The notes beneath the pieces were generated by a model. It was not told the DNA's origin. It did not search any database and saw only the letters and a program-made list of their open reading frames with translations. This document shows positions 1-53,811 of a DNA stretch of 64,000 bases, one piece after another (the first letter of the stretch is position 1; the number at the start of each line of letters is the position of its first letter). The position numbers were made by a program, and so were the translations under genes. The DNA is taken from the NCBI GenBank assembly GCA_016928025.1, contig JAFGLN010000023.1, positions 1 to 64,000 on the forward strand. Direction: 5' to 3'. This DNA comes from Deltaproteobacteria bacterium (GTDB lineage: Bacteria; Desulfobacterota; Syntrophia; Syntrophales; JAFGHS01).

Positions 1-104
1 CGCAAGCGGATATGATGGATTTATTTAGAAGTTTTATGATAAGGGATGACTGTGCCGTGGCTGCCGCGGTAGCGGCTTACTTGAACCTGATGATGGAACA
101 GACC

Positions 105-761
105 ATGAAAAAAATTGCACCGTCGATACTATCCGCCGATTTCAGCAGGCTGGCGGAAGAAATCCGGGCCGTAGAAAGAGCGGGGGCCGATTGGGTCCAT
201 ATCGATGTGATGGACGGTCATTTTGTCCCCAATATTACCATTGGACCCGGTGTGATTGCCTCTTTAAGAAAAACGACTCAACTGCCCTTTGATGTTCATT
301 TAATGATTGAAAATCCGGAAAGGTATATCAAGACCTTTGCCGAGGCGGGCAGCGATATGATCACCGTTCATGCGGAGGCGACAACCCATCTGCATCGAAC
401 CATCGGTCTCATTCATGAAGCCGGTGTTCAGGCGGGTGTGACGATTAATCCGGCGACGCCTCTGCTGATGGTTGAGCCGGTCCTTCCCGACTGTGATCTC
501 CTTTTGCTGATGTCCGTCAATCCCGGCTTCGGCGGCCAAAAATTCATCAAGAGCAGTCTGGCAAAAATCAGGGCGGCCCGGCTGCTGATTGACGGGATTG
601 CGCCCGGCGTATTGCTGGAAGTCGATGGCGGTGTAACACTGGATAATATCGAATCGATCGCCAATGCCGGCACCGATATTATTGTTGCCGGTGCGGCCAT
701 TTTCGAAAGCGGAGATTATGCCGATACGATCAGGGCCATGAAGGGCATCATCAAAGCATGA
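105..761 (+). CDS. rpe: Ribulose-phosphate 3-epimerase
   Basis: Interconverts ribulose-5-phosphate and xylulose-5-phosphate in the cytosolic pentose phosphate pathway. The 218-residue product has the full TIM-barrel signature set: the N-terminal APSILSADF strand, HIDVMDGHFVPN with the metal-binding His and Asp, HLMIENP, MSVNPGFGGQKF, and a C-terminal phosphate-binding VAGAAIF. I chose ATG 105 because homology begins there. The frame stays open to the window edge, giving 31 extra codons from ATG 12 (ending AVAAYLNLMMEQT) that are not part of the family, so they may be the tail of an upstream gene or simply untranslated. The next gene starts 12 bp downstream, so the two are probably cotranscribed. 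Identification is secure; the start is likely. Confidence 0.95.
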   Translation: MKKIAPSILSADFSRLAEEIRAVERAGADWVHIDVMDGHFVPNITIGPGVIASLRKTTQLPFDVHLMIENPERYIKTFAEAGSDMITVHAEATTHLHRTIGLIHEAGVQAGVTINPATPLLMVEPVLPDCDLLLLMSVNPGFGGQKFIKSSLAKIRAARLLIDGIAPGVLLEVDGGVTLDNIESIANAGTDIIVAGAAIFESGDYADTIRAMKGIIKA

Positions 762-773
762 TGGCAGGGGAAA

Positions 774-1292
774 GTGCATATCATCATCGATGGCTATAAT
801 ATGATCCGGCAATTGGATACGTTGAGGCGTTCTGAGAGAAACAGTCTGGAGGCGGGACGCCGGGCACTGGTCCGGCTGGTATCGTTGTATAAAAAAAAGA
901 AGGGGCATAAATTAACGGTCGTTTTTGACGGTTGGCAAAGCGGCTCCCCCTTTGAGGAACGTGAATTTGAATCCGGAATCTCTATCATTTACTCCCGGCT
1001 GGGAGAGAGGGCGGATGATGTGATCAAGAGGATTGTTCGATCAAAGGAGGAAGAGGTCGTCGTCGTGACATCGGATCGCGATATCATTTCCTACGTTGAA
1101 CGAAAAAACGTTGCCGCCATTTCTCCTCAGAACTTTGAAGGCAGGATAAGCGATGCCCAAAACAGGCCGGACTATTTTGCCGATACTGACGATGATGAGG
1201 ATAACGGTGTTCCCGGAACAAAAAAGAAAGGTCCCGCTAAACGTCTTTCCCGCAGAAAGAAAAATGAGCTGGCGAAAATGAGAAAATTGTAA
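774..1292 (+). CDS. YacP-like NYN-domain RNA nuclease
   Basis: A 172-residue protein of the NYN/YacP (Rae1-like) family, which are PIN-fold metal-dependent ribonucleases, some acting on translated mRNA. Visible motifs are the N-terminal HIIIDGYNMI with a catalytic Asp, VVFDGWQSG, and VVVTSDRDII with further acidic residues. The last 30 residues are highly basic (KKKGPAKRLSRRKK) and may bind RNA or the ribosome. The start is GTG, supported by an AGGGG ribosome site just upstream. It probably shares a transcript with rpe and is convergent with the next gene. The substrate cannot be read from sequence. Confidence 0.75.
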   Translation: MHIIIDGYNMIRQLDTLRRSERNSLEAGRRALVRLVSLYKKKKGHKLTVVFDGWQSGSPFEEREFESGISIIYSRLGERADDVIKRIVRSKEEEVVVVTSDRDIISYVERKNVAAISPQNFEGRISDAQNRPDYFADTDDDEDNGVPGTKKKGPAKRLSRRKKNELAKMRKL

Positions 1293-38767: not shown

Positions 38768-40213
38768 TTAAACCTTGGACCTTGTTCCTTGATTTTTCTC
38801 CTGCGTCACGGTCTTTAGTCCTTCAATAATGAATGAAAATTCCTTGTCGTCGATCGTTCGCAAATCCATCAAAACTTCATCGTCGGCGATTCGGACAATG
38901 ACCGGGATGTCAAGACGCCGGAGGTGCTCGTCAATCATATGACAAGACAGCCGGTCCGATGTCAGGGCGATGCAAAACGTTGGAATGTCCTCCATCGGAA
39001 GCGATCCGCCCCCCGAGCGGGAAATTCCCTTCCTCAGAGAGACATGAATTCCCGCAAGCTTTAATCGTCGGATGGCGGCAAGGAGTTTCCTGGCTTTCTT
39101 TTCCACCTGTTCGACCGGATCTGTCAGGGCCCGCAGAACTCTTGACCGGGAGCGGGCCGTTTCGGGATTGAGATATAACATCAGCGTTGCCTCCAGGGCG
39201 GCAAGGGTCAGTTTGTCAATGCGAAGCGCCCGGTTGAGGGCATTCTTCTTGATGTCTTGCAGGAGGGCTTTTTTGCCCAAGATGATGCCGGCCTGGGGAC
39301 CACCCAAAAGTTTGTCGCCGCTTAAGGTGACCACATCGGCGCCCGTTGCCAGGGCGTCCTGGACCGTCGGTTCCCTGATCAGCCCGTATTGGTCGAGTTC
39401 GAGGAAACAACCGCTGCCCAGATCGTTGAAGACGGGAATTCCGAAACGTTTTCCCAGGGCCACCAGGGTGAACAGGTCTATTTCTTCCGTAAAACCCAGG
39501 ATTTTATAATTGCTGGTATGCACTTTCAGGATCAATCCGGTATTTTCATGGATCGCTTTTTCGTAGTCCGCAAGGTGCGTGCGATTGGTTGTTCCGACTT
39601 CATGCAAAATGGCACCGCTCTTTTCCATGATTTCGGGGATGCGAAATTCCCCGCCGATTTCTATCAGCTCACCTCTCGAGACAATGACATCCTTACCGTC
39701 GGCCAGGGTGTTCAGAACCAACAGAACCGCGGCGGCGTTGTTATTCACCACAAGGGCATCTTGGGCACCCGATATGACGCAAAGGAGTCTTTGAACATGA
39801 TCGTAACGAAGACCGCGGCGCCCGGTTTTCAGATTGTATTCCAGATTTGAATACCCCGCGCCGATGTCCGAAAGCCTCCTGACGGCTTCATCGCAAAGCG
39901 GCGCCCGGCCCAGATTTGTATGCAGGATGACACCCGTGGCATTGATGACCCGTTTTAAATGGTATTGATGCAGGGCGTCGATGATTGCCGTCACATCCGC
40001 CAGAATGTCTTCTGCTTTCGGTGTCTGAAACGAATCCGGAGAGATATTTTCGGCTTTCATGATGCGATATCGCAGGTTTTCAACAACCGTGCGACAGGCC
40101 TCTTTGACAACGTCTTTCGGGGCTCTTTCGAATATATTTTCTTTTTCCAGATTTTGCATCATGCCGTCAATCTTCGGAAGGGTCTTCAGCAACGCTTTTT
40201 GGGTGTCGTTCAT
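38768..40213 (-). CDS. selA: L-seryl-tRNA(Sec) selenium transferase
   Basis: PLP enzyme that converts Ser-tRNA(Sec) to Sec-tRNA(Sec) using selenophosphate. The 481-residue product has LKRVINATGVILHTNLGRAPL, GYSNLEYNLKTGRRG, and SGDKLLGGPQAGIILG with the PLP lysine at about 301. GAAGG lies upstream of ATG 40213; an earlier in-frame ATG overlaps the lytic transglycosylase stop. selB and selC are not seen nearby, although they often follow selA. The fdhA gene in this window needs its product. Confidence 0.96.
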   Translation of the reverse strand: MNDTQKALLKTLPKIDGMMQNLEKENIFERAPKDVVKEACRTVVENLRYRIMKAENISPDSFQTPKAEDILADVTAIIDALHQYHLKRVINATGVILHTNLGRAPLCDEAVRRLSDIGAGYSNLEYNLKTGRRGLRYDHVQRLLCVISGAQDALVVNNNAAAVLLVLNTLADGKDVIVSRGELIEIGGEFRIPEIMEKSGAILHEVGTTNRTHLADYEKAIHENTGLILKVHTSNYKILGFTEEIDLFTLVALGKRFGIPVFNDLGSGCFLELDQYGLIREPTVQDALATGADVVTLSGDKLLGGPQAGIILGKKALLQDIKKNALNRALRIDKLTLAALEATLMLYLNPETARSRSRVLRALTDPVEQVEKKARKLLAAIRRLKLAGIHVSLRKGISRSGGGSLPMEDIPTFCIALTSDRLSCHMIDEHLRRLDIPVIVRIADDEVLMDLRTIDDKEFSFIIEGLKTVTQEKNQGTRSKV

Positions 40214-40237
40214 TTGCGGACCTTCAAAATGTTTCAT

Positions 40238-41383
40238 TCATTCCTGAAACGGTGGATCCTGAGTGGAGGTATTTGGATAGACAATCAGCTTTTCCCCGAC
40301 AAAAAGTTCCCTTGCCATGTCTAAGCGGTTCCAGACCAAAAGTGCGGGAAGCGGCACGTTGAAACTCGTGGCGATTGAGGAAAGACTGTCACCATCCTTG
40401 ACGGTATAAATGCTTTTTTTACTATCCTCCTGCCATTGGCGGAGAAGTTTTTCGTATTTAACATGGAAGCTTTCCGCGGCCCCTTCAGGAACGGCGATGC
40501 TGTGTTGACCCTTAACCAGGTAGTGTCCCCGGATTTCAGGATTCAGTTCCTTGATGACTTTAAAATAAGTATCCGCGGCTTCGGCGATGATCTGAACAGG
40601 CGTATCTTCGGAACACGTGATGTCCACTTGGTCAAAGGTCAGCAGAGGGTAAAAGTCTTTATTATTTAAGAAAAAACCGTATTGCCCCGGATTGCTGATG
40701 ATTAATTTGGCGGAAATGATCCTGAAGATATATCGCTGGGTTTCGATGGGCAAATATAACTGATAATAATCATTTACTTTCTGGATCAGGATCTCCGCTT
40801 TTAATCCCTCTTCTCCCATATTGTATGCGGAAGCCGCCAGTGTCCAGGATCCGAACATCCCGTGGAGGGTGTCGAGATAGCGGATCGCCGCATCGGTAGA
40901 CACAAAAATATTTCGGCGCTCGTCAATATGATCATCAATGGTCAGGTCGTACGTTTTCCCTGTGCCTTCCATGAACTGCCAGTATCCCATGGCGCCTTTT
41001 GGTGACCCGGCATAAGATAGGAGACTGCTTTCCACAATGACGAGATATTTTAAGTCATCCGGCATTCCGTTTTTTTTGAGCATCTTTTCGATATGGGGCA
41101 TATAGCGACTGGAACGTTTCAGCCAGAGAATGGTTTGGGGACGATTCCAGAGCATCAACATAAATTCTTTTTCGAATCGTTCGCGAACGTCCCGATTATG
41201 GAGCGGGACCGGCTCGCTGCAGAAATGAATCGGACCGTTGATCCGGATGGTGGAAAGCAGGGACGGAATATATTCGGATGTTGGGCGAATAGGCTCACTC
41301 CCGCAAGCCGCTTGCGTTGTTAGGATTCCCCAAAAGAGAATTGCCGAGAACCGGAAAAGAACAAGATGAGCAGCGCCCCTCAT
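40238..41383 (-). CDS. MltD-like lytic transglycosylase with LysM domain
   Basis: A secreted or periplasmic peptidoglycan-cleaving enzyme of 381 residues. An N-terminal signal segment (LFRFSAILFWGILTTQAACG, possibly a lipoprotein) is followed by an SLT domain with LVIVESSLLSYAGSPKGAMGYWQFMEGTG (catalytic Glu in VESS) and WTLAASAYNMGEEGL, and by a C-terminal LysM (IYTVKDGDSLSSIATSFNVPLPALLVWN). The stop abuts the selA start region, so it is in the S1-selA transcript, though its role is unrelated. Confidence 0.87.
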   Translation of the reverse strand: MRGAAHLVLFRFSAILFWGILTTQAACGSEPIRPTSEYIPSLLSTIRINGPIHFCSEPVPLHNRDVRERFEKEFMLMLWNRPQTILWLKRSSRYMPHIEKMLKKNGMPDDLKYLVIVESSLLSYAGSPKGAMGYWQFMEGTGKTYDLTIDDHIDERRNIFVSTDAAIRYLDTLHGMFGSWTLAASAYNMGEEGLKAEILIQKVNDYYQLYLPIETQRYIFRIISAKLIISNPGQYGFFLNNKDFYPLLTFDQVDITCSEDTPVQIIAEAADTYFKVIKELNPEIRGHYLVKGQHSIAVPEGAAESFHVKYEKLLRQWQEDSKKSIYTVKDGDSLSSIATSFNVPLPALLVWNRLDMARELFVGEKLIVYPNTSTQDPPFQE

Positions 41384-43355: not shown

Positions 43356-43417
43356 TTGACAGTCCCCTGAAAAGAAAATATGTGATCGCTATCGTTTATA
43401 TGTCTTATCTGGCATAT
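43356..43417 (+). promoter_or_regulatory. Promoter P1 with operator palindrome, upstream of the fdhA leader
   Basis: TTGACA (43356) and TATGTG (43379) are spaced by 17 bases. They are followed by ATATGTC-N6-GGCATAT at 43398-43417, with one mismatch in seven base pairs, placed just after the expected transcription start. The sequence CGCTAT lies between. Its direction points into a stretch without a convincing gene. Confidence 0.5.
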
Positions 43418-43447
43418 GAACCGTCATATTTTCGAGTCAGCTGGTGT

Positions 43448-43652
43448 CGGGCGGTTTTATCATGCCCGGTTCTGAAAATACCGCGTCATCATTCGCACTT
43501 GCGGTTCGATGACACATTATATGAGAGCTTTGAAGAAAGAACGCCCGGCTTTCTGTATGATAGGCGTGGAGGCCTAATCGCACGGGAAACTCCCCGCATA
43601 TCTTTTGCGCTCCTCAGAAAGTTACCGGTGCGTAACCATTCGAAGCTCTCAT
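43448..43652 (+). ncRNA. Candidate structured RNA / long leader upstream of fdhA
   Basis: The stretch folds repeatedly in RNA form: CGGGC/GCCCG at 43448-43468; ACCGC/GCGGT and GTCATC/GATGAC at 43480-43513, which cross and so are alternatives or a pseudoknot; and a 14-bp closing stem, 43521-43534 with 43639-43652 (one G-U pair). The closing stem encloses ACGCC/GGCGT, CGGG/CCCG and GTTAC-CGGTGC-GTAAC hairpins. A T-rich run follows. The interval 43176-43874 contains no gene that I believe in; a GTG-initiated frame at 43382-43774 lacks a ribosome site. I do not recognise the motif as a known riboswitch. Confidence 0.4.
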
Positions 43653-43770
43653 TATTTTTCTTAAAATATGGTGCGGTGCCCACTTTGTTTTTATCATTTC
43701 CGACTTCAATCCAGCAATTTTACATTTCAAGATGTTATCATAAAAAAGTGATGGATTCCATTCTTAGGTG

Positions 43771-43830
43771 TTGACTTCTTGTAGCCGGATATTGTAAAAG
43801 TCGACACGCTATATGTCTTAAATGACATAA
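43771..43830 (+). promoter_or_regulatory. Promoter P2 of fdhA with operator palindrome
   Basis: TTGACT (43771) and TGTAAA (43793) are spaced by 16 bases. TATGTC-N6-GACATA at 43812-43829 is a perfect palindrome covering the expected start of transcription. The layout repeats P1 almost exactly. A repressor bound here would block initiation. Confidence 0.55.
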
Positions 43831-43851: not shown

Positions 43852-43874
43852 TAACTATCTCTTTGGAGGCGGTT

Positions 43875-46574
43875 ATGGGTGATACCTTTATGTTGAATGG
43901 GAAAGAAGTTGAATTTAAAAAGGATGATACGATCCTGGATGCGGCCAAACGTGTGGGAGTGGAAATTCCGACACTTTGTTTTCTGAAAGGGGCTACACCG
44001 ACAGGGGCCTGCCGTATGTGTCTGGTGGAGGTTGTTGGTGGGCGAGCATTAATGACGGCCTGTTCCACACCGGTGACGAAGGGGATGGAAGTCATCACGG
44101 ACAGCGAGCGTGTTCACAAAGCGCGAAAAATGAATGTCGAGTTGCTTCTGAGCAGCGGCAAGCATGATTGCATAGTTTGCGAAGCCAACGGTTGCTGCCG
44201 CCTGCAGGACCTGGCCTACTTTTATGGCATCAAAGAACCCCGTTTCACACAGACGCCGGTGGAAGAGCTATACCCGGTCGAAGATGTGAACCCTTTTATC
44301 GTTCGTGACTTCAGCCGCTGTATCCTATGCGGACGATGTGTTCAGGCCTGTAATGAAGTGGTGGTCAACCGAGCCATCAGCTATGGCTATCGCGGTTCGG
44401 CCAACAAGATCGTGACCGGTGGTGACCTGCCTTACAACGATTCCGAATGTGTGTTTTGCGGTCAGTGTGTTGAGGTCTGTCCGGTTGGCGCCTTGACGGA
44501 GAAAAAAGCCAAGGGGCTGGGACGGCCCTGGGAGGTCGAGAAAATACGTACCACCTGTCCATACTGCGGCGTCGGTTGCCAGCAGTGGCTCCATGTGAAA
44601 GACGGCAAAATCGTAAAGGTTACGGCCGTTGAAAACGCCGAACCCAACCAGGGACGTTTGTGTATCAAAGGCCGTTTCGGCTACGATTTTATTTATTCCG
44701 AAGATCGACTTAAAACTCCCCTCATCCGCGAGAACGGCAAATTTCGAGAGGCCTCCTGGGATGAAGCCCTTGATCTGGTTGCGGCGAAGTTCAAGGACAT
44801 CATGGAGCAGCATGGCCCGGACGCCATTGCCGGTGTCAGTTGTGCCCGAAGCATCAATGAGGATTCCTATCAGATGCAGAAGCTCTTTCGCGCCACTTTT
44901 GGAACAAATAATATCGATCATTGTGCCCGTACTTGACACGCTCCGACGGTCGCCGGTCTGGCGACCTCTTTTGGTTCGGGTGCCATGACAAATTCGTTTG
45001 CCGACTTCAAAAAAGCCCAGATGATTTTTGTCATCGGCTCTAACATGACAGAAGCCCATCCGGTCGCGGCTACGTTTGTCAAACAGGCCGCCATTAATGG
45101 CGCCCAGCTGATTGTTGTTGATCCCCGCCGCACGGGCCTTGTGGATTTTGCGAACCTCCATGTGCCGATCAAAGTCGGTTCGGACATCGCGTTTCTCAAT
45201 GGCGTAATGAATGTTTTGATCAACGAAGATCTTTATGACAAAAAATATGTTGAGTCATGCACGGTTGGATTTGAAGATCTGAAAGCCAAGGTTATGGAAT
45301 ATCCGCCGGAGCGGGCCGCCGAGATCAGCGGTGTCAGCGCAGACACAATACGCGATGTGGCGCGGCGAATGGCATCCGTAAAACCCGCCATGCTCATGTA
45401 TACACTGGGTATCACCGAGCATATCTGTGGTGTTCGGAACGTCTTGTCCTGCGCCAATATGCAGATGCTTCTGGGTAACGTCGGTTTCGAATGCGGCGGT
45501 GTGAATCCCCTGCGGGGTCAAAACAACGTTCAGGGGGCCTGTGACATGGGCGCCTTGCCGAATGTTTTTCCCGGGTATCAACGTGTGGACAATCCCGAAG
45601 CTCGGGCGAAGTTCGCAGCCGCATGGAGTGTTGAAAAATTGCCGGAGAAGCCGGGCATGATGATTCCCCAGATGCTTGACGGTTTGCTTGACGGTAAGGT
45701 GAAGGGCTTCTACGTGTTCGGTGAAAACCTGGCCAATACGGAACCCGATATCCGGCACGTGGAAAAGTGTTTGAGTTCGGCGGAATTCCTGGTGTGCCAG
45801 GATATTTTTCCGACGGAGACGACGTGGTTTGCCCATGTCATTCTGCCGGCAGCCGCCTGGAGCGAGAACGACGGCACCTTCACGAACAGCGAACGACGCG
45901 TAAACCGGGTCCGCACGGCAAGCAAACCGCCGGGCGATGCCAAACCGAACTGGTGGATTTTCAAGGAAATTGCCAAACGGATGGGACAAAAATGGAAGTC
46001 GAACAGTGCCCGGGATATTTGGGACAAGGAAATTGCGCAACTGACACCGTCCATGGCCGGAATCAAGTATGCCCGGATCGAGAACGACGGCCTTCAGTGG
46101 CCTGTTCCGAGTGAAGACCATGCGGGAACGAGTTTCCTCCATGCGGAAGGTTGTTTCACCTGCGGTCTCGGTGCCCTGACGCCTGTGGACTGGGTGCCGC
46201 CCGCGGAGGTCCCGGATAAAGAATACCCATTGACCTTGAGCACGGGCCGGCGATTGTACCACTATCATACGCGGACACAGACAGGACGGTCTCCGGGGAT
46301 CGATGATCTGATGGGGGAAGAGACGGCCGACATTTCACCCATTGATGCCCGTGATCGCGGGATTCTTGACGGCGAAATGATCAGCGTCAAATCGCGGCGG
46401 GGCGAGGTGAATGTCAAGGCGAATGTTACGGATCGGATGCCCGAAGGAATGGTCTGGATGGCCTTTCATTTTCGGGAAGCCTGTGCCAACTGGCTCACGA
46501 ATCCGGCTTACGACCCCACTACGCAAACGGCGGAATATAAGGCCTGTGCCGTGCGCATTGACAAATTGAAATAA
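43875..46574 (+). CDS. fdhA: Selenocysteine-containing formate dehydrogenase, catalytic subunit
   Basis: Oxidises formate (or reduces CO2) at a molybdenum or tungsten bis-pterin site. The product is 899 residues with Sec354 encoded by TGA at 44934. Without recoding the gene appears as two ORFs, 43863-44936 and 44985-46574. Domains in order: a [2Fe-2S] domain (Cys35, 46, 49, 63), a His/Cys [4Fe-4S] segment (His97 to Cys108), two ferredoxin clusters (Cys149-159, Cys192-202), the molybdopterin 4Fe4S domain (CPYCGVGC, 228-235), and the pterin-binding domains. The Sec context is DHCART-U-HAPTVAGL. The size and cluster content match the NAD(P)-linked Moorella-type FdhA, whose Sec is at a similar position. 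GGAGG fixes ATG 43875. No FdhB-like partner is beside it. Confidence 0.93.
44934..44966 (+). promoter_or_regulatory. UGA codon and bacterial SECIS hairpin in fdhA
   Basis: The in-frame TGA (44934-44936) is followed after 11 bases by a perfect 7-bp stem, GGTCGCC (44948-44954) with GGCGACC (44960-44966), closed by the loop GGTCT. The spacing and the GGUCU loop match the E. coli fdhF SECIS element bound by SelB. The reading frame continues for 546 codons of conserved formate dehydrogenase sequence. Confidence 0.9.
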
Positions 46575-47055: not shown

Positions 47056-49728
47056 ATGAAAGAAGTTAATCTGACAATCAATGGCGTTAAGAAGCAATTC
47101 ACTGTCGAGCCCGATTATGTGCTCCTTGATCTATTGCGTGAGGATTTGGGCCTGACCGGCGCCAAGCAGTCTTGTGACCGTAAGGGGCAATGCGGGGCCT
47201 GCATGGTCATCGTAGACGGAAAAGCCGTCCATTCCTGTTTAAAGAAGGTGGTCGATCTGGAAGGTGCTTCCGTCATTACCGTCGAGGGTCTGGGGACACC
47301 GCACAATCCGCACCTGATTCAGGAAGCCTATGTACTTTCCGGAGCCGTCCAATGCGGCTATTGCACACCGGGCATGATCATGGCTACCAAGGTGCTCCTC
47401 GATAAAAATCCCGATCCTGACGATGCGGCAATTAAAAGGGCTCTGGCCAGGAACCTTTGCCGCTGCACGGGCTACACTAAAATCATCGACGCCGTCAAGC
47501 TTGCTGCGCGGTTTCTCCGCAATGAAACAACGCCGGACGAATATCGCCAGAACATTGAGGCAGGCGCCATGGGCGTGTCCCATCCGCGGCCATCGTCGAT
47601 TCTAAAGGCCTGCGGCGTTGCCCAATTTACCGGAGACATCAAGATGCCGGGCATGATTGAGCTGGCTCTTGTCCATAGCACGGAACACCATGCGATTATT
47701 AAATCCATCGACACTCGGATGGCGGAGAAGATGCCGGGTGTCATCGGAATTATGCGGCCGGAGGATATCAAAGGGACCAACCGTATCCGGGTCATTGTGC
47801 CCGATCAGCCGGTTCTCTGTGAAGACAAGGTTCGAATTCTGGGTGATCCGCTTGTTGCCGTTGCCGCCGAGACGCGGGTCCAGGCCCGGGCCGCCGCCGC
47901 CGCGGTCAAGGTACAGTATGAGCCCCTGCCCGTTATGCTGACGCCGGCGGAAGCGTTGGCTCCGGATGCCCCGCAGATTCACACGCAGTTGCCTAATCTC
48001 TGTTTCTCTCAGCCTTTGATTAAGGGAGATGCCGAGGCAGCCCTGGGGGCATCGGCGGCCGTCGTCGCAGCTGAATTTTCAACGCAGATGAATCATCAGG
48101 CCCCCCTGGAGCCGGAAGCGTGTGTTGCCTATCTCGATGGCGAAGGCGAAAACGCCCGGCTGGTTGTGATCGGCCGGAGCATCAACATCCATTCCCATGC
48201 GGCACAGATTAAAGAAGCCGTTGGTTGGGAAAATATCCGCTACAAAGAAGCCTATTCCGGCGGTCAATTCGGTATCAAGGCGGCCGTCACCAGTGAGGCT
48301 GTCACCGCCGCGGCGGCCATGCATTTCAAACGGCCGGTCCGTTATATTCCAAGCCTTCAGGAATCAATCATTACGACGTCCAAAAGGCATCCCTATGAAA
48401 TGAAGCTGAAACTGGCTGCCGATGCCCAGGGCCATATCACGGCTTATGAAAATGATTTTACCATCAATAAAGGAGCGTACACTATTTTAGGTCCCATGGC
48501 CATATCGAGAAGCCTCCACATGCTCTCAGGGTCCTACCATATCCCCAACATTAATGCCCTGGGAAAACTAGTATATACCAATAACGGCTATGGCGGAGCC
48601 GCGAGGGGTGCCGGACCTCCCCAGACCATCTTTGCCCTCGAGTCGGCGGTGGACATGCTGGCGGAGAAGTTAGAAATCGATCCTTTGGAGTTCCGGCGCA
48701 GGAATTCTCTGCAACCGGGTGGGACGAAGGCCACCGGTATGGTTGCTGCTCAGTGGCCGTTTCCGGAGGTTTGTGACGCCATCAAACCTCACTATGACAG
48801 GGCCAAAAAAGAGGTGGAAGCTTTTAATCAAAAAAACGACAGGATCAAACGAGGTGTCGGCATTGCCGCTATGTCCTTTGGGATCGGCGGGAACGCTGAC
48901 CGGGCAAAGCTGGCCGTCGAGGTCGATCCGGATGACGGCATCACGATTTACGCCGCCGTTGCCGATCCGGGCGAAGGCAATGAGTCCATGCTAGCGCAGA
49001 TTGCTGCCCATGCCTTGGAGATGCCTCTGGAGAAAGTACGCCTCTACACGCGTGATACGGAAAAGACGTTTCCCGCCGGGCCTTCGGCGGGGAGCCGTCA
49101 GACCTGGATGGCGGGCGGTGCCTTGATGGATGCCATCCAGCAAATGAAGGAAGCTATGGAAGCAGTCGGATCGAAGACGTATGAAGGCCTGCAAAAGACA
49201 GGAAAACCAACCCGCTATGAAGGGCGCCGCAAGAACAAAGGCGAATTAATGCTTGATCCCAAAACCGGTCAGGGGGATTCATTTTTGTCCGAATGCCACA
49301 ATCTTCAGATGGTGGAGGCGGAAGTGAACACGGAAACCGGTGCGGTTGTGGTGAACAAGATTACGACCGTTGTGGACGCAGGGCCGGTAATCCATCCGCA
49401 GAATCTCGAGGGCCAGTTGGAGGGTGGGATGGACCAGGGCGTCGGCTACGCGCTCCGTGAAGAATATGTCCACGGCAAAACGAAAGATTATGTCAGCTTC
49501 AAATTTCCCACTATGCGGACCGCCTTCAAAACGGAGATTATCACGTTGGAAACACCTCGTATTGGCGGGCCCCTGGGAGCCACGGGCATCGGTGAGATGA
49601 CCATGGTGTCCACGGCGCCGGCGGTGATCAACGCCATCTATAATGCCTGCGGCGCCAGAATCTTCGATCTGCCGGCGACACCGGCCAAAGTGAAGGCGGC
49701 AATTGAGGCCAGGAACAAAACAATGTAA
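47056..49728 (+). CDS. Molybdenum hydroxylase, aldehyde oxidoreductase (Mop) type
   Basis: A single-chain xanthine-oxidase-family enzyme of 890 residues. Two [2Fe-2S] clusters are bound by Cys40, 46, 49, 61 and Cys100, 103, 135, 137; from about residue 170 the two molybdopterin domains follow, with GGQFGIKAAVTSEAV, GGAARGAGPPQTIFALE and the catalytic Glu847 in GATGIGE. Fused clusters without an FAD domain match Desulfovibrio gigas Mop (about 907 residues), which uses the cytosine dinucleotide cofactor. The downstream genes supply sulfuration, insertion and cytidylylation. GGAGGCGGAGGAG precedes the ATG. The substrate (aldehyde or N-heterocycle) is not decidable from sequence. Confidence 0.9.
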   Translation: MKEVNLTINGVKKQFTVEPDYVLLDLLREDLGLTGAKQSCDRKGQCGACMVIVDGKAVHSCLKKVVDLEGASVITVEGLGTPHNPHLIQEAYVLSGAVQCGYCTPGMIMATKVLLDKNPDPDDAAIKRALARNLCRCTGYTKIIDAVKLAARFLRNETTPDEYRQNIEAGAMGVSHPRPSSILKACGVAQFTGDIKMPGMIELALVHSTEHHAIIKSIDTRMAEKMPGVIGIMRPEDIKGTNRIRVIVPDQPVLCEDKVRILGDPLVAVAAETRVQARAAAAAVKVQYEPLPVMLTPAEALAPDAPQIHTQLPNLCFSQPLIKGDAEAALGASAAVVAAEFSTQMNHQAPLEPEACVAYLDGEGENARLVVIGRSINIHSHAAQIKEAVGWENIRYKEAYSGGQFGIKAAVTSEAVTAAAAMHFKRPVRYIPSLQESIITTSKRHPYEMKLKLAADAQGHITAYENDFTINKGAYTILGPMAISRSLHMLSGSYHIPNINALGKLVYTNNGYGGAARGAGPPQTIFALESAVDMLAEKLEIDPLEFRRRNSLQPGGTKATGMVAAQWPFPEVCDAIKPHYDRAKKEVEAFNQKNDRIKRGVGIAAMSFGIGGNADRAKLAVEVDPDDGITIYAAVADPGEGNESMLAQIAAHALEMPLEKVRLYTRDTEKTFPAGPSAGSRQTWMAGGALMDAIQQMKEAMEAVGSKTYEGLQKTGKPTRYEGRRKNKGELMLDPKTGQGDSFLSECHNLQMVEAEVNTETGAVVVNKITTVVDAGPVIHPQNLEGQLEGGMDQGVGYALREEYVHGKTKDYVSFKFPTMRTAFKTEIITLETPRIGGPLGATGIGEMTMVSTAPAVINAIYNACGARIFDLPATPAKVKAAIEARNKTM

Positions 49729-49738
49729 TACAAGGCTG

Positions 49739-49789
49739 AAGATCGGCAGGTCGACACCCATTTAATGATGTCGATCTGCCGATCTTTTT
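49739..49789 (+). terminator. Intrinsic terminator inside the hydroxylase gene cluster
   Basis: GATCGGCAG-G-TCGAC pairs with GTCGA-T-CTGCCGATC (15 bp with one G-U) around a loop of 14 and is followed by TTTTT. It ends 27 bp before the desulfurase start, too close for a separate promoter, so the maturation genes are probably expressed by partial read-through at a lower level than the enzyme. Confidence 0.8.
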
Positions 49790-49816
49790 GTTTGACGATT
49801 CCGCAAGTCATTTCAT

Positions 49817-51184
49817 ATGATGCCGGCCATGATTATTTCCCCCAAAGGTATATCCCTGGACATCATCCGTAACGATTTTCCGTCGTTAAGGAGGATGAGA
49901 GACGGAAAGCCGCCCATCTATTTCGATAACGCCTGTACAACTTTGGTGCCACAGCAGGTCATCCGCGCGATAACGGACTACTATGAACAACATCCGGCCT
50001 GCGGCGGTGGCCGAAGCCGCCACTGGTTTGCCGAAGAAGTGATCGCAGAAATTGACGGCGATGCGGCGGCGGAAATTGAAGGATCGCGCCAAATTATTGC
50101 GGACTTTATCAATGCCGGCTCCGAAAAAGAAATTGTCTTTACCGCCAATGCCAGTCATGCCATCAATATTGTGGCCCTGGGTTTTCCCTTCCGTCGTGGT
50201 GATGTCGTGCTGCTTACGGACCGGGAACATAATTCGAATCTTGTTCCCTGGCTGAGATTGCAGAATAAAGGATCGATCAGGGTTGATTATTGCGGGACGG
50301 GAGAGGATGGTGCTTTTGATCTTGAAGCCTTCCGGGGTAAGTTGGAAAGCGGCCCTGTCCGCCTGGTCAGCATGGCCTACACCTCGAATGTGACCGGCTG
50401 CACCCTGCCGGCCAAGGCGATCATCGACTTGGCCCATTGTTGCGGTGCCAGGGTCCTTCTGGATGCGGCCCAGACGGCGCCGCACCGGGCAATGGATGTT
50501 CAGGACCTGGATGTGGATTTCCTGGCCTTCTCCATCCACAAAATGTGCGGTCCCCGGGGCGTGGGTATCCTGTATGGCAAAGGAGCGCTTTTAAGGCAGG
50601 CCGAGCCCGGGATTGGCGATGACGGTGAAGATGCTATCGAACCGGTACTCCTGGGTGGCGGCGCGGTCCATGATGCGACCTATCAGGGTTATCGTCTTTT
50701 GGATCCGCCCGAGCGGTTTGAGGTCGGCGTGCAGAACTACGCAGGCCAGATTGCCGCCGGCGCCGCCGTGAACTATTTGCAGGCCATTGGAATGGACCGC
50801 ATTGACAAACGGGAAACCGAATTAAACGGCTTCCTGACTGAGGAACTGCTCAAGCGATACGGAGACACCGGCTGGTTCAGGATTATCGGTCCCCGCGAGG
50901 CGGCGCAAAGAGGCGGCCTCCTCACCTTCGAGATTAAAAGGCCCAATGCCGTGGGCATCACGGAGGAGCTGAGCGCCCGGAGCAGCATCATGATCCGCGA
51001 CGGTGTTTTTTGCGTTCATTCTTACTTCAACAAGCTCTACGGTGAGGGCTGGACCAGGCCGAAGCCGCCGTCGGAGCACAAAATGGTTTACCGTCTGTCT
51101 CTGTATTTTTACAACACCCTGGAGGAATGCCGGACGTTCCTGGACACGCTGCATGACATTTTTGAAGAACGCAGCTATATTTGA
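49817..51184 (+). CDS. Cysteine desulfurase (SufS/NifS4-like) for cofactor sulfuration
   Basis: A PLP enzyme of 455 residues with class II (SufS/CsdA-like) features: YFDNACTTLVPQQV, DREHNSNLVPW with the PLP-stacking His138, VLLDAAQTAPH, the PLP lysine Lys242 in SIHKMCGPRGVG, and the active cysteine Cys399 in RDGVFCVHS. No separate Suf or Isc operon is present; it lies between the hydroxylase and an IscU-like gene plus xdhC. In Rhodobacter capsulatus a dedicated NifS4 sulfurates the cofactor held by XdhC, and the same task is inferred here. Selenide delivery is an alternative. The start is ATG 49817 or 49829. Confidence 0.8.
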   Translation: MMPAMIISPKGISLDIIRNDFPSLRRMRDGKPPIYFDNACTTLVPQQVIRAITDYYEQHPACGGGRSRHWFAEEVIAEIDGDAAAEIEGSRQIIADFINAGSEKEIVFTANASHAINIVALGFPFRRGDVVLLTDREHNSNLVPWLRLQNKGSIRVDYCGTGEDGAFDLEAFRGKLESGPVRLVSMAYTSNVTGCTLPAKAIIDLAHCCGARVLLDAAQTAPHRAMDVQDLDVDFLAFSIHKMCGPRGVGILYGKGALLRQAEPGIGDDGEDAIEPVLLGGGAVHDATYQGYRLLDPPERFEVGVQNYAGQIAAGAAVNYLQAIGMDRIDKRETELNGFLTEELLKRYGDTGWFRIIGPREAAQRGGLLTFEIKRPNAVGITEELSARSSIMIRDGVFCVHSYFNKLYGEGWTRPKPPSEHKMVYRLSLYFYNTLEECRTFLDTLHDIFEERSYI

Positions 51185-51221
51185 TAGTTATCCGGTTTTT
51201 GCGAAACCGAAGCTCGTTATT

Positions 51222-51620
51222 ATGGATGAAGCCGTCATCAAATATTACCGCAAACTGTTGAGATCGGGCTTTAAGTATGCCGGCACCGTCGATAATCCCG
51301 ACATTTTCATCGACACCGTAAGCGAAAATGTTCCGCTCTGTGGCCATGCCGGCGACTACTTGCATCTTTACATCCATGTTCGGGACGGTAAAATTGCCGC
51401 CGCCAGGTATCTATGCACGTGCGAACCGACAACGAATGTCGTTGTGGAAATCCTTTGCGGTCTGGTTCAGAATAAAACCTTGGCGGAGGTTAAACAAATC
51501 AATGAAAATTTTTTTTCCGAAGAATTGGCCAGTGACGGCAAAGACCTGCGACACAAAGCCGCCGGTCTGCTGGAACTTCTGCACAGAGGACTGGATAGAT
51601 ATCTGGCGGAGAGAATCTGA
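51222..51620 (+). CDS. IscU/NifU-N-like scaffold protein with incomplete cysteine set
   Basis: A 132-residue protein with the NifU N-terminal fold: NPDIFIDTVSENVPLCGHAGDYLHLYIHVRDGKIAAARYLCTCEPTTNVVVEILCGLVQNKTL aligns with IscU around Cys40, Asp45 and Cys65/67. The third cluster ligand (Cys106 in IscU) is replaced: DLRHKAAGL keeps His111 but has Lys next to it. It follows the desulfurase by 37 bp and precedes xdhC. It may pass sulfur or selenium to the molybdenum cofactor rather than build Fe-S clusters. No clear ribosome site is seen before ATG 51222. Confidence 0.7.
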   Translation: MDEAVIKYYRKLLRSGFKYAGTVDNPDIFIDTVSENVPLCGHAGDYLHLYIHVRDGKIAAARYLCTCEPTTNVVVEILCGLVQNKTLAEVKQINENFFSEELASDGKDLRHKAAGLLELLHRGLDRYLAERI

Positions 51621-51637
51621 GATAAAGGAGTCATTGC

Positions 51638-52696
51638 ATGAACGATAACAAGTATCTTTTGAAAATGATCTGTGAAAAACTGGGAACAGAAGCGTCACTC
51701 GTTCTGGCCTCCATTGTCAGTATTGAGGGCTCGTCGCCCCGGCATGGGGGAGCGAAAATGATCGTCGACGAGCGGGGAAAAAGTTACGGAACCATCGGCG
51801 GCGGAGCAATGGAAGCGACAGTGATTAGGGAGGCGTCAAATGCCCTATCGACAAAGCAATCCTGCCTGATGCGCTTTGATTTGACCGGTGAAGACGCCTC
51901 CGCCAAAGACATGATCTGCGGCGGAACGGCCCTGGTTCTGCTGGACGTCGTTGAGGCAACGTCGGAGAATATTGCCTTCTTCCGGGGATTTCAGGAAGCA
52001 GTGCAGGCGGATAACAACGGCTGTTTTTATACGCTGTTTCGCGGCGCTGATCAGGCCGTCGATATCCTTGGCCGTACACTGTACATCCCCGGTAAGAAAA
52101 GCACCGGCACTTATGTCTGGCAAGAAACAGATCTGGAAAAGGTTATATCCGCCTCGAAAGGTCTTTCCACAGCAGAAGTCCTTTCCCTGGGGGCAGTGCG
52201 GGTTGTTCTGGATCCGGTTAGAAAAACGGAAACGCTTTACTGCTTCGGGGCGGGGCATGTGGCCCTGCCGGCGGCCCATATGGCTGCCCTGGTGGGATTT
52301 CGCGTCGTTGTCATCGATGATCGGGATGAGTTTGCCAACAGGGATCGCTTTCCCGAAGCCGACGAGGTTCGCGTTATCGAAGACTTCAACCACGCCCTGG
52401 ATGGGCTGCCCATCGACGCTGATTCATATATCGTAATTGTCACGAGGGGGCATGCCTTTGACCGGGTCGTTCTCGAACAGGCCTTAAAGACCAAAGCCGG
52501 CTACATTGGCATGATCAGCAGTCGTAAAAAAAGAGAGCAGATTTATTCGGCGTTGATGGAGGAGGGTGTGAGCAAGGAGGCGCTGGCGTTTGTTCATTCT
52601 CCCATCGGCATTCCCATCGGCGGCGATACACCGGAAGAAATTGCCGTCAGCATTGTTGCCGAGCTCATCGGCGAACGGTATAAGAGGAAGTCATGA
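51638..52696 (+). CDS. xdhC: XdhC-family molybdenum cofactor insertion protein
   Basis: A 352-residue protein with the N-terminal XdhC/CoxI domain (SIEGSSPRHGGAKMIVDERG, GTIGGGAMEATVI and DMICGGTALVLLD with conserved Cys94) and the C-terminal Rossmann domain (LYCFGAGHVALPAAHMAALVGFRVVVIDDRDEFANRDRFPEA). XdhC binds the molybdenum cofactor, holds it during sulfuration and inserts it into the hydroxylase. AAAGGAG precedes the ATG, and the stop overlaps the next gene by 4 bp (ATGA). Confidence 0.92.
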   Translation: MNDNKYLLKMICEKLGTEASLVLASIVSIEGSSPRHGGAKMIVDERGKSYGTIGGGAMEATVIREASNALSTKQSCLMRFDLTGEDASAKDMICGGTALVLLDVVEATSENIAFFRGFQEAVQADNNGCFYTLFRGADQAVDILGRTLYIPGKKSTGTYVWQETDLEKVISASKGLSTAEVLSLGAVRVVLDPVRKTETLYCFGAGHVALPAAHMAALVGFRVVVIDDRDEFANRDRFPEADEVRVIEDFNHALDGLPIDADSYIVIVTRGHAFDRVVLEQALKTKAGYIGMISSRKKREQIYSALMEEGVSKEALAFVHSPIGIPIGGDTPEEIAVSIVAELIGERYKRKS

Positions 52697-53811
52697 CAGA
52701 TACCCGTTATGCCGCTATCATCCTTGCGGCCGGCCTTTCGTCGCGCATGAAATCCTTCAAACCTCTGCTGCCTTTGGGAGCAGAATCAATTGCTGACCGG
52801 GTTATCTCGTCATTTACAAAAAATAGCTGCGATGTGCTGCTCGTGATCGGATGGAATAAGGACCTTCTGCTATCCGGCCTGAAAACCCGGTACATCACAA
52901 TTGTCGAAAATCCCGATTACGAGCAGGGAATGTTTACCTCTGTCCTGGCAGGCATCCATCGCCTGCAGCCACAGCTCGATGGATTTTTCATCATGCCGGT
53001 TGATATTCCCCTCGTGAGACCGGCGACGGTTCGCGGGCTCATGGACGAAGCGGCAAAACAGCCGGGGAAAATTATCTATCCCGCCTTCGGGAGGGAAAGA
53101 GGGCATCCGACTTTTGTTCCGTCTTGCCTCGTTTCCGGTATTGCGTCGTGGCAGCAGGACGGAGGTTTGAAGGCATTTCTCCGGATCCGCGAAGAACTTT
53201 CTCTGGATTTGCCCGTGCCCGATCGCAACATCCTGTTTGATATCGATACGGCCGATGACTATCAAGAGGCGCAGGAGCGTTTTCGCACCTATGATATACC
53301 GACGGATGAAGAGTGCGACGTCATCATGGATGTCATTCATCCTGTGGCAACCAATGTCCGCCGGCATTGCCGGAAAGTCGCCGAAGTGGCCGTGTTCCTT
53401 GGTGAAAAATTGCGGCATCAGGGTCAAGACATCAACTTGCCTTTGGTCCGGGCTGCAGCCCTACTGCACGATCTGGCCAAAGGAATGCCGGATCATGACA
53501 CGGTGGCGGGTCGGATGCTGAATGACATGGGCTTCGGTGCTGTCGGCAACATCGTGGCTCTGCACACCGATTTAACGGAGGGGGCTGAAATTGTCTCCCT
53601 GGAAACCAAGATTGTGTATCTTGCGGACAAGTTTGTGGAAAACGACAAGATTATACCGCTGGAAGAGCGCTATCGCACCTGGGACCGCCGGTTTGCCGTT
53701 ACCCCGGATGTCAAGGTCGGTATCCTAAGGCGCAAAAGCCGCGCCCTTCAGGTAAAGCAAGAATTGGAAGTAATCCTGGGCGGCCCGTTGGAAAATATTA
53801 TTAATGTCTAA
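52693..53811 (+). CDS. MocA-like nucleotidyltransferase fused to an HD domain
   Basis: A 372-residue fusion. The N-terminal half (about 1-200) is a MobA/MocA-type NTP transferase: IILAAGLSSRMKSFKPLLPLG at 9-29, EQGMFTSVLAGI, MPVDIPLVRP and HPTFVPS-type motifs; MocA adds CMP to molybdopterin to make the cytosine dinucleotide cofactor used by Mop-type enzymes. The C-terminal half is a metal-binding HD domain: His225, His259-Asp260 (LLHDLAKGMPDHD) and Asp-containing KIVYLADKFVEND. HD proteins are phosphohydrolases, perhaps for pyrophosphate or nucleotide turnover here. It is translationally coupled to xdhC. Confidence 0.82.
   Translation: MTDTRYAAIILAAGLSSRMKSFKPLLPLGAESIADRVISSFTKNSCDVLLVIGWNKDLLLSGLKTRYITIVENPDYEQGMFTSVLAGIHRLQPQLDGFFIMPVDIPLVRPATVRGLMDEAAKQPGKIIYPAFGRERGHPTFVPSCLVSGIASWQQDGGLKAFLRIREELSLDLPVPDRNILFDIDTADDYQEAQERFRTYDIPTDEECDVIMDVIHPVATNVRRHCRKVAEVAVFLGEKLRHQGQDINLPLVRAAALLHDLAKGMPDHDTVAGRMLNDMGFGAVGNIVALHTDLTEGAEIVSLETKIVYLADKFVENDKIIPLEERYRTWDRRFAVTPDVKVGILRRKSRALQVKQELEVILGGPLENIINV

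Follow-up and report, generated by a model that had tools for sequence, protein, structure and literature searches.

FdhA of Moorella thermoacetica is a NuoG-fused selenoprotein similar in length to the protein considered here, and the Moorella SECIS RNA seen in SelB crystal structures has an unbulged stem and a GGUCU loop, as has the hairpin described below. The other well-known counterpart is FdhF (formate dehydrogenase H) of Escherichia coli, taken as the reference at NC_000913 4297219-4299366. Among bacterial selenoprotein families, FdhA is described as one of the most widespread; in a table of PMC1794560, four selenocysteine (Sec) FdhA genes are given for Syntrophus aciditrophicus and six for Syntrophobacter fumaroxidans. 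A literature search returned nothing on a Smithella formate dehydrogenase with selenocysteine and nothing on the Moorella SECIS bound by the SelB winged-helix.

The window, i.e., the whole stretch of DNA that was analysed, is 64,000 nt long and corresponds to the forward-strand positions 1-64,000 of contig JAFGLN010000023.1 (GCA_016928025.1) from a Deltaproteobacteria bacterium. Its fdhA is almost certainly a single selenoprotein gene in which UGA 44934 is decoded as Sec354 (Table 1), and at the level of sequence this reading is borne out by the frame, by homology, by the Sec machinery of the genome, and by a covarying hairpin. The protein is identical to E. coli FdhF at 292 of the 690 aligned positions, with residue 354 opposite TGA codon 140; the peptide around the TGA is NNIDHCART-U-HAPTVAGL, the motif in which an earlier, sequence-only reading had recognized a Sec/Cys position. 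In both genes, the apical stem is reached after 11 bases and GGUCU starts 18 bases after the UGA. In contrast, FdhF is devoid of the NuoG-like iron-sulfur N-terminus, the alignment beginning at window residue 221, and a single bulged U interrupts its predicted apical stem, whereas the window stem has no bulge; the likeness to the E. coli fdhF hairpin proposed in the sequence-only reading therefore holds for spacing and loop but not for the stem. The Sec FdhA proteins of Deltaproteobacteria, as described in PMC1794560, belong to the same protein family with the same use of Sec, and on this description no substantial difference from them was noticed. Among the best 80 of 134 relatives, the fdhA genes in Syntrophus, Smithella, and Syntrophaceae records are at most 81% identical to that of the window and have TGA at the site. 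Since the closest named records include these taxa, an anaerobic life can be inferred for the host, which is probably also syntrophic.

Table 1. Features of the fdhA locus and of the selA gene in the window
Feature	Position	Strand	Basis or remark
selA, L-seryl-tRNA(Sec) selenium transferase	38768..40237	-	TIGR00474, 598.5 and 598.6 bits, cut-off 267.9
GGAGG, likely ribosome-binding site	43865..43869	+	5 bases ahead of ATG 43875; inferred from sequence
fdhA, formate dehydrogenase alpha subunit with NuoG-like N-terminal part	43875..46574	+	899 residues, Sec354; TIGR01591, Pfam, structure-relative search
N-terminal iron-sulfur part (Fer2_4, NADH-G_4Fe-4S_3, Fer4; residues 4-208)	43884..44498	+	Pfam
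Catalytic part (Molybdop_Fe4S4, Molybdopterin, Molydop_binding; residues 223-892)	44541..46550	+	Pfam
Rfam SECIS_3 (RF01989) match	44931..44989	+	41.9 bits, E 1.7e-06; gathering score 63 not reached
In-frame TGA, selenocysteine 354, aligned with Sec140 of E. coli FdhF	44934..44936	+	TGA in 77/85 aligned genes
SECIS apical hairpin GGUCGCC-GGUCU-GGCGACC	44948..44966	+	inner six pairs conserved, outermost not

The codon was compared in an alignment of 85 fdhA genes. Besides that of the window, these are two paralogues of the same genome, two genes from one genome of the same genus (the search for this family and genus yielded no further genome), and 80 loci taken from records of named genomes. 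The latter are the top 80 among 134 relatives that peptide patterns had brought up. At the Sec site, 77 genes have TGA (both same-genus genes among them), seven have TGC, and one has TGT, with no residue besides Sec and Cys. The two paralogues, C101:105577-108246 and C73:17521-20190, are respectively 65% and 53% identical to the window fdhA and possess one TGA each, at the same site, together with a SECIS-like hairpin. In sequence, FdhA comes closest to the solved formate dehydrogenases 7vw6, 7e5z, 9wxb, and 6tg9, and Cys occupies the Sec site in three alignments of FdhA with solved formate dehydrogenases.

The TGA is followed by 11 bases (44937-44947) and by a perfect 7-bp stem (GGTCGCC, 44948-44954, and GGCGACC, 44960-44966) enclosing the loop GGTCT (44955-44959), exactly as the sequence-only reading had described. 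The use of this hairpin as support for Sec is justified by the silent-site covariation reported below but not by the stem alone. In fact, in synonymous shuffles that kept the protein and used the codon usage of fdhA itself, a 7-bp stem with G-U pairs allowed arises at the same place in 11654 of 200000 cases (5.8%), a 7-bp stem plus the GGTCT loop in 2831 of 200000 (1.4%), and an equally stable folding in 217 of 3000; dinucleotide shuffles give a z of -1.50, with 14 of 200 equally stable. The stem on its own is modestly beyond chance and represents weak evidence for a SECIS, because the codons for VAGLAT readily yield a palindrome, and as stand-alone proof it was rejected on the basis of the 7-bp stems in the synonymous shuffles. 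The SECIS search suggested earlier does give a match at the right place, albeit under the gathering score, and for this reason the hairpin is not filed under SECIS_3; the two paralogues score 48.4 and 36.5 bits with the same model, likewise below 63, and an Rfam scan of the window at the gathering score found no SECIS family, a tRNA being the only hit.

The comparison of the 72 distinct Sec segments is more informative. The inner six stem pairs are formed in 424 of 432 cells, and the share of formed pairs drops to 19.7-68.5% when the stem register is slid by 1-3 bases, while pairing at the outermost of the seven positions occurs in 32 of the 72 segments and the conserved stem therefore consists of six pairs. 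The loop is GGTCT in 55 segments, GGGCT in 11, GGACT in three, GGGTT in two, and AGTTT in one. Two of the pairs, 14/26 and 17/23 (numbered from 0 at the first base after the TGA), join third codon positions: pair 14/26 (Val-Ala) is CG in 56 segments, TA in 11, and GC in five, and pair 17/23 (Ala-Leu) is CG in 65 and GC in seven. Both are thus matched in 72 of 72 segments, a result reached for either pair in none of 20000 permutations, which ignore relatedness, and protein conservation does not explain these matched silent sites. A FastTree phylogeny, for which long branches were warned of, was calculated on 83 of the 85 rows; the two loci with other frame breaks (L105 and L108) were kept out of the tree and retained in the codon and pair counts. 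On this tree, pair 14/26 shows at least eight state changes and both sides change together in eight of eight independent row pairs (sign test, p 0.0078), and pair 17/23 co-changes in four of four (p 0.125, too few for a sign test); Sec/Cys exchanges, taken without direction, number at least six. In the Cys genes, pair 14/26 is matched in two of eight and pair 17/23 in seven of eight. Silent-site covariation can be considered stronger evidence for a SECIS than the window stem by itself.

These data bear on the possibility that FdhA has Cys at this site and that TGC or TGT was turned into TGA by faulty sequencing or assembly, an idea with which the Cys codon found at the site in eight of the 85 aligned genes would agree. 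However, the TGA recurs in the two same-genome paralogues and in the two same-genus genes, and the window hairpin has both silent pairs matched, like 72/72 Sec segments, whereas six of the eight Cys genes are without one, which makes an error for Cys very improbable. The sequence-only reading had indicated a TGC or TGG at 44934 as the observation that would speak against Sec, and such a true codon is very unlikely because the two paralogues and 77 of the 85 aligned genes carry TGA.

The frame from ATG 43875 to TAA 46572-46574 comprises 899 codons with a single interruption, TGA 44934-44936 at codon 354, and the chance of 545 open codons past the TGA, calculated from base composition, is P ~4e-12. 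The joined product obtains 836.5 bits against TIGR01591 and passes the cut-off of 666.25, while the separate halves obtain 181.1 bits (first) and 604.3 bits (second), both below it; the same-frame continuation of the conserved sequence across the TGA, on which the sequence-only reading was founded, is therefore confirmed. From its sequence, FdhA is a NuoG-like iron-sulfur part fused to the catalytic subunit. A genuine stop, or a pseudogene mutation leaving the halves separate or dead, would be in line with the open reading frame list, in which the region appears as two frames (43863-44936 and 44985-46574), the two truncated products anticipated for a standard gene caller, and in which TGA is the stop of nine of the 29 window genes picked. 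Against it, the sole stop in 899 codons falls exactly where E. coli FdhF has Sec, the same TGA is present in 77 of the 85 genes, and the FdhA cut-off is passed only by the joined protein; such a stop is therefore hardly credible. Among the other joined frames listed by a scan of the longer window frames with TGA read as Sec, the pair at 12-1292 (+) was rejected, since a ribulose-phosphate 3-epimerase gene and a YacP-like gene merely lie in one frame.

As judged from sequence matches, the bacterial Sec-decoding trait (selA, selB, selC, and selD) is present in the genome, whose assembly consists of 126 contigs and is 89.1% complete, with selC cut at the 3' end. In particular, selB on contig C81 scores 376.8 bits (cut-off 242.25) and has two SelB winged-helix domains, and selD on contig C14 (L025:1483-2529) also encodes a selenoprotein, its one in-frame TGA lying in the stretch GAG-U-ACK. 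The tRNA-Sec match on contig C34 (56.9 bits, gathering score 47) has the loop CUUCAAA with anticodon UCA and runs into the contig end, so that the final 3' bases are missing, which is presumably the reason why ARAGORN gave no call for it. The other tRNA-Sec candidates L010, L011, L013, L014, and L016 were discarded, being assigned by ARAGORN to Ser, Leu, Trp, Ser, and Arg, respectively, as was L015, which holds Tyr and Thr tRNAs; L009 and L012 received no ARAGORN call, L012 being below the gathering score. A minus-strand scan of locus L022 found nothing. The genes that the sequence-only reading expected elsewhere in the genome were thus recovered, with selA in addition, and the presence of selA, selB, selD, and tRNA-Sec excludes a lack of Sec machinery. 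The reading of TGA as tryptophan in a changed code, or an unspecific readthrough, for which no supporting point was found, has a negligible probability, given that TGA terminates nine of the 29 window genes counted, that Trp is found at the site in none of the 85 aligned genes, and that dedicated Sec machinery is encoded in the genome.

Adjacent to selA, a murein-transglycosylase-like gene (40238-41383, minus strand) ends with a TGA stop that abuts the selA ATG with no gap and in the same frame (40235-40240). UGA readthrough from this gene into selA would yield an 871-residue fusion; the junction is probably an example of plain translational coupling.

In the decoding of fdhA as a selenoprotein gene, the ribosome would meet UGA 44934 and SelB with Sec-tRNA-Sec would bind the hairpin 44948-44966, with the consequent placement of Sec as residue 354 in lieu of termination, according to known bacterial Sec insertion. 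The 899-residue product would be the alpha subunit of a Mo/W formate dehydrogenase in which, on the basis of established knowledge of FdhA, Sec354 would be the active-site metal ligand and the N-terminal iron-sulfur chain would hand electrons to a partner, with formate oxidation or CO2 reduction as the predicted reaction. With regard to the partner, NuoE- and NuoF-like genes precede the C101 paralogue, a response-regulator gene standing in between, and the C73 paralogue has a formate/nitrite transporter gene downstream. The comparison of the window with the C101 NuoE and NuoF gave no match at E 1e-5, so that the window fdhA does not show the neighbouring NuoE and NuoF genes by which an NADH-linked (NuoE/NuoF-partnered) FdhA would be recognized.

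Downstream of fdhA, an aldehyde-oxidoreductase-like gene is found along with maturation genes of the XdhC and NTP-transferase types. The cluster (47056-53811, plus strand) includes a molybdopterin aldehyde-oxidoreductase-like gene, with 768.8 bits to NF045668 and the cut-off of 1100 not reached, a cysteine-desulfurase-like gene, and the genes of an XdhC-family AOR maturation factor and a DVU_1551-type NTP transferase, both of which exceed their cut-offs. Upstream, an open frame of 130 codons (43382-43774, plus strand) gave no Pfam/NCBIfam match at the thresholds used and none in the 80 related loci, and may not be a gene. In the same 80 loci, whose flanks extend for at most ~4 kb, the S1, murein-transglycosylase-like, selA, aldehyde-oxidoreductase, and cysteine-desulfurase genes of the window had no match (0/80 at E 1e-8); selA is located 3.6 kb upstream of fdhA and is therefore reached only in part by these flanks, which makes the test weak for this gene.

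The window fdhA extends the list of Sec FdhA genes in a bacterial group for which several are known. If Sec is not provided for, a gene caller splits it and would report the formate dehydrogenase as two fragments, and the silent-site covariation is a worked example of how a functional SECIS can be separated from the palindrome that the protein sequence readily gives. A further proposal, which may prove right or wrong with equal probability, is that strong selection at the RNA level acts on the silent bases of the VAGLA codons as long as the site has UGA and is lifted once a Cys codon stands there, with a loop that tolerates GGUCU, GGGCU, GGACU, GGGUU, and, once, AGUUU. If this is true, the 77 Sec and eight Cys fdhA genes could represent a natural mutational scan of the recognition between SelB and a SECIS with an unbulged stem, and could also mark where Sec and Cys were exchanged recently.
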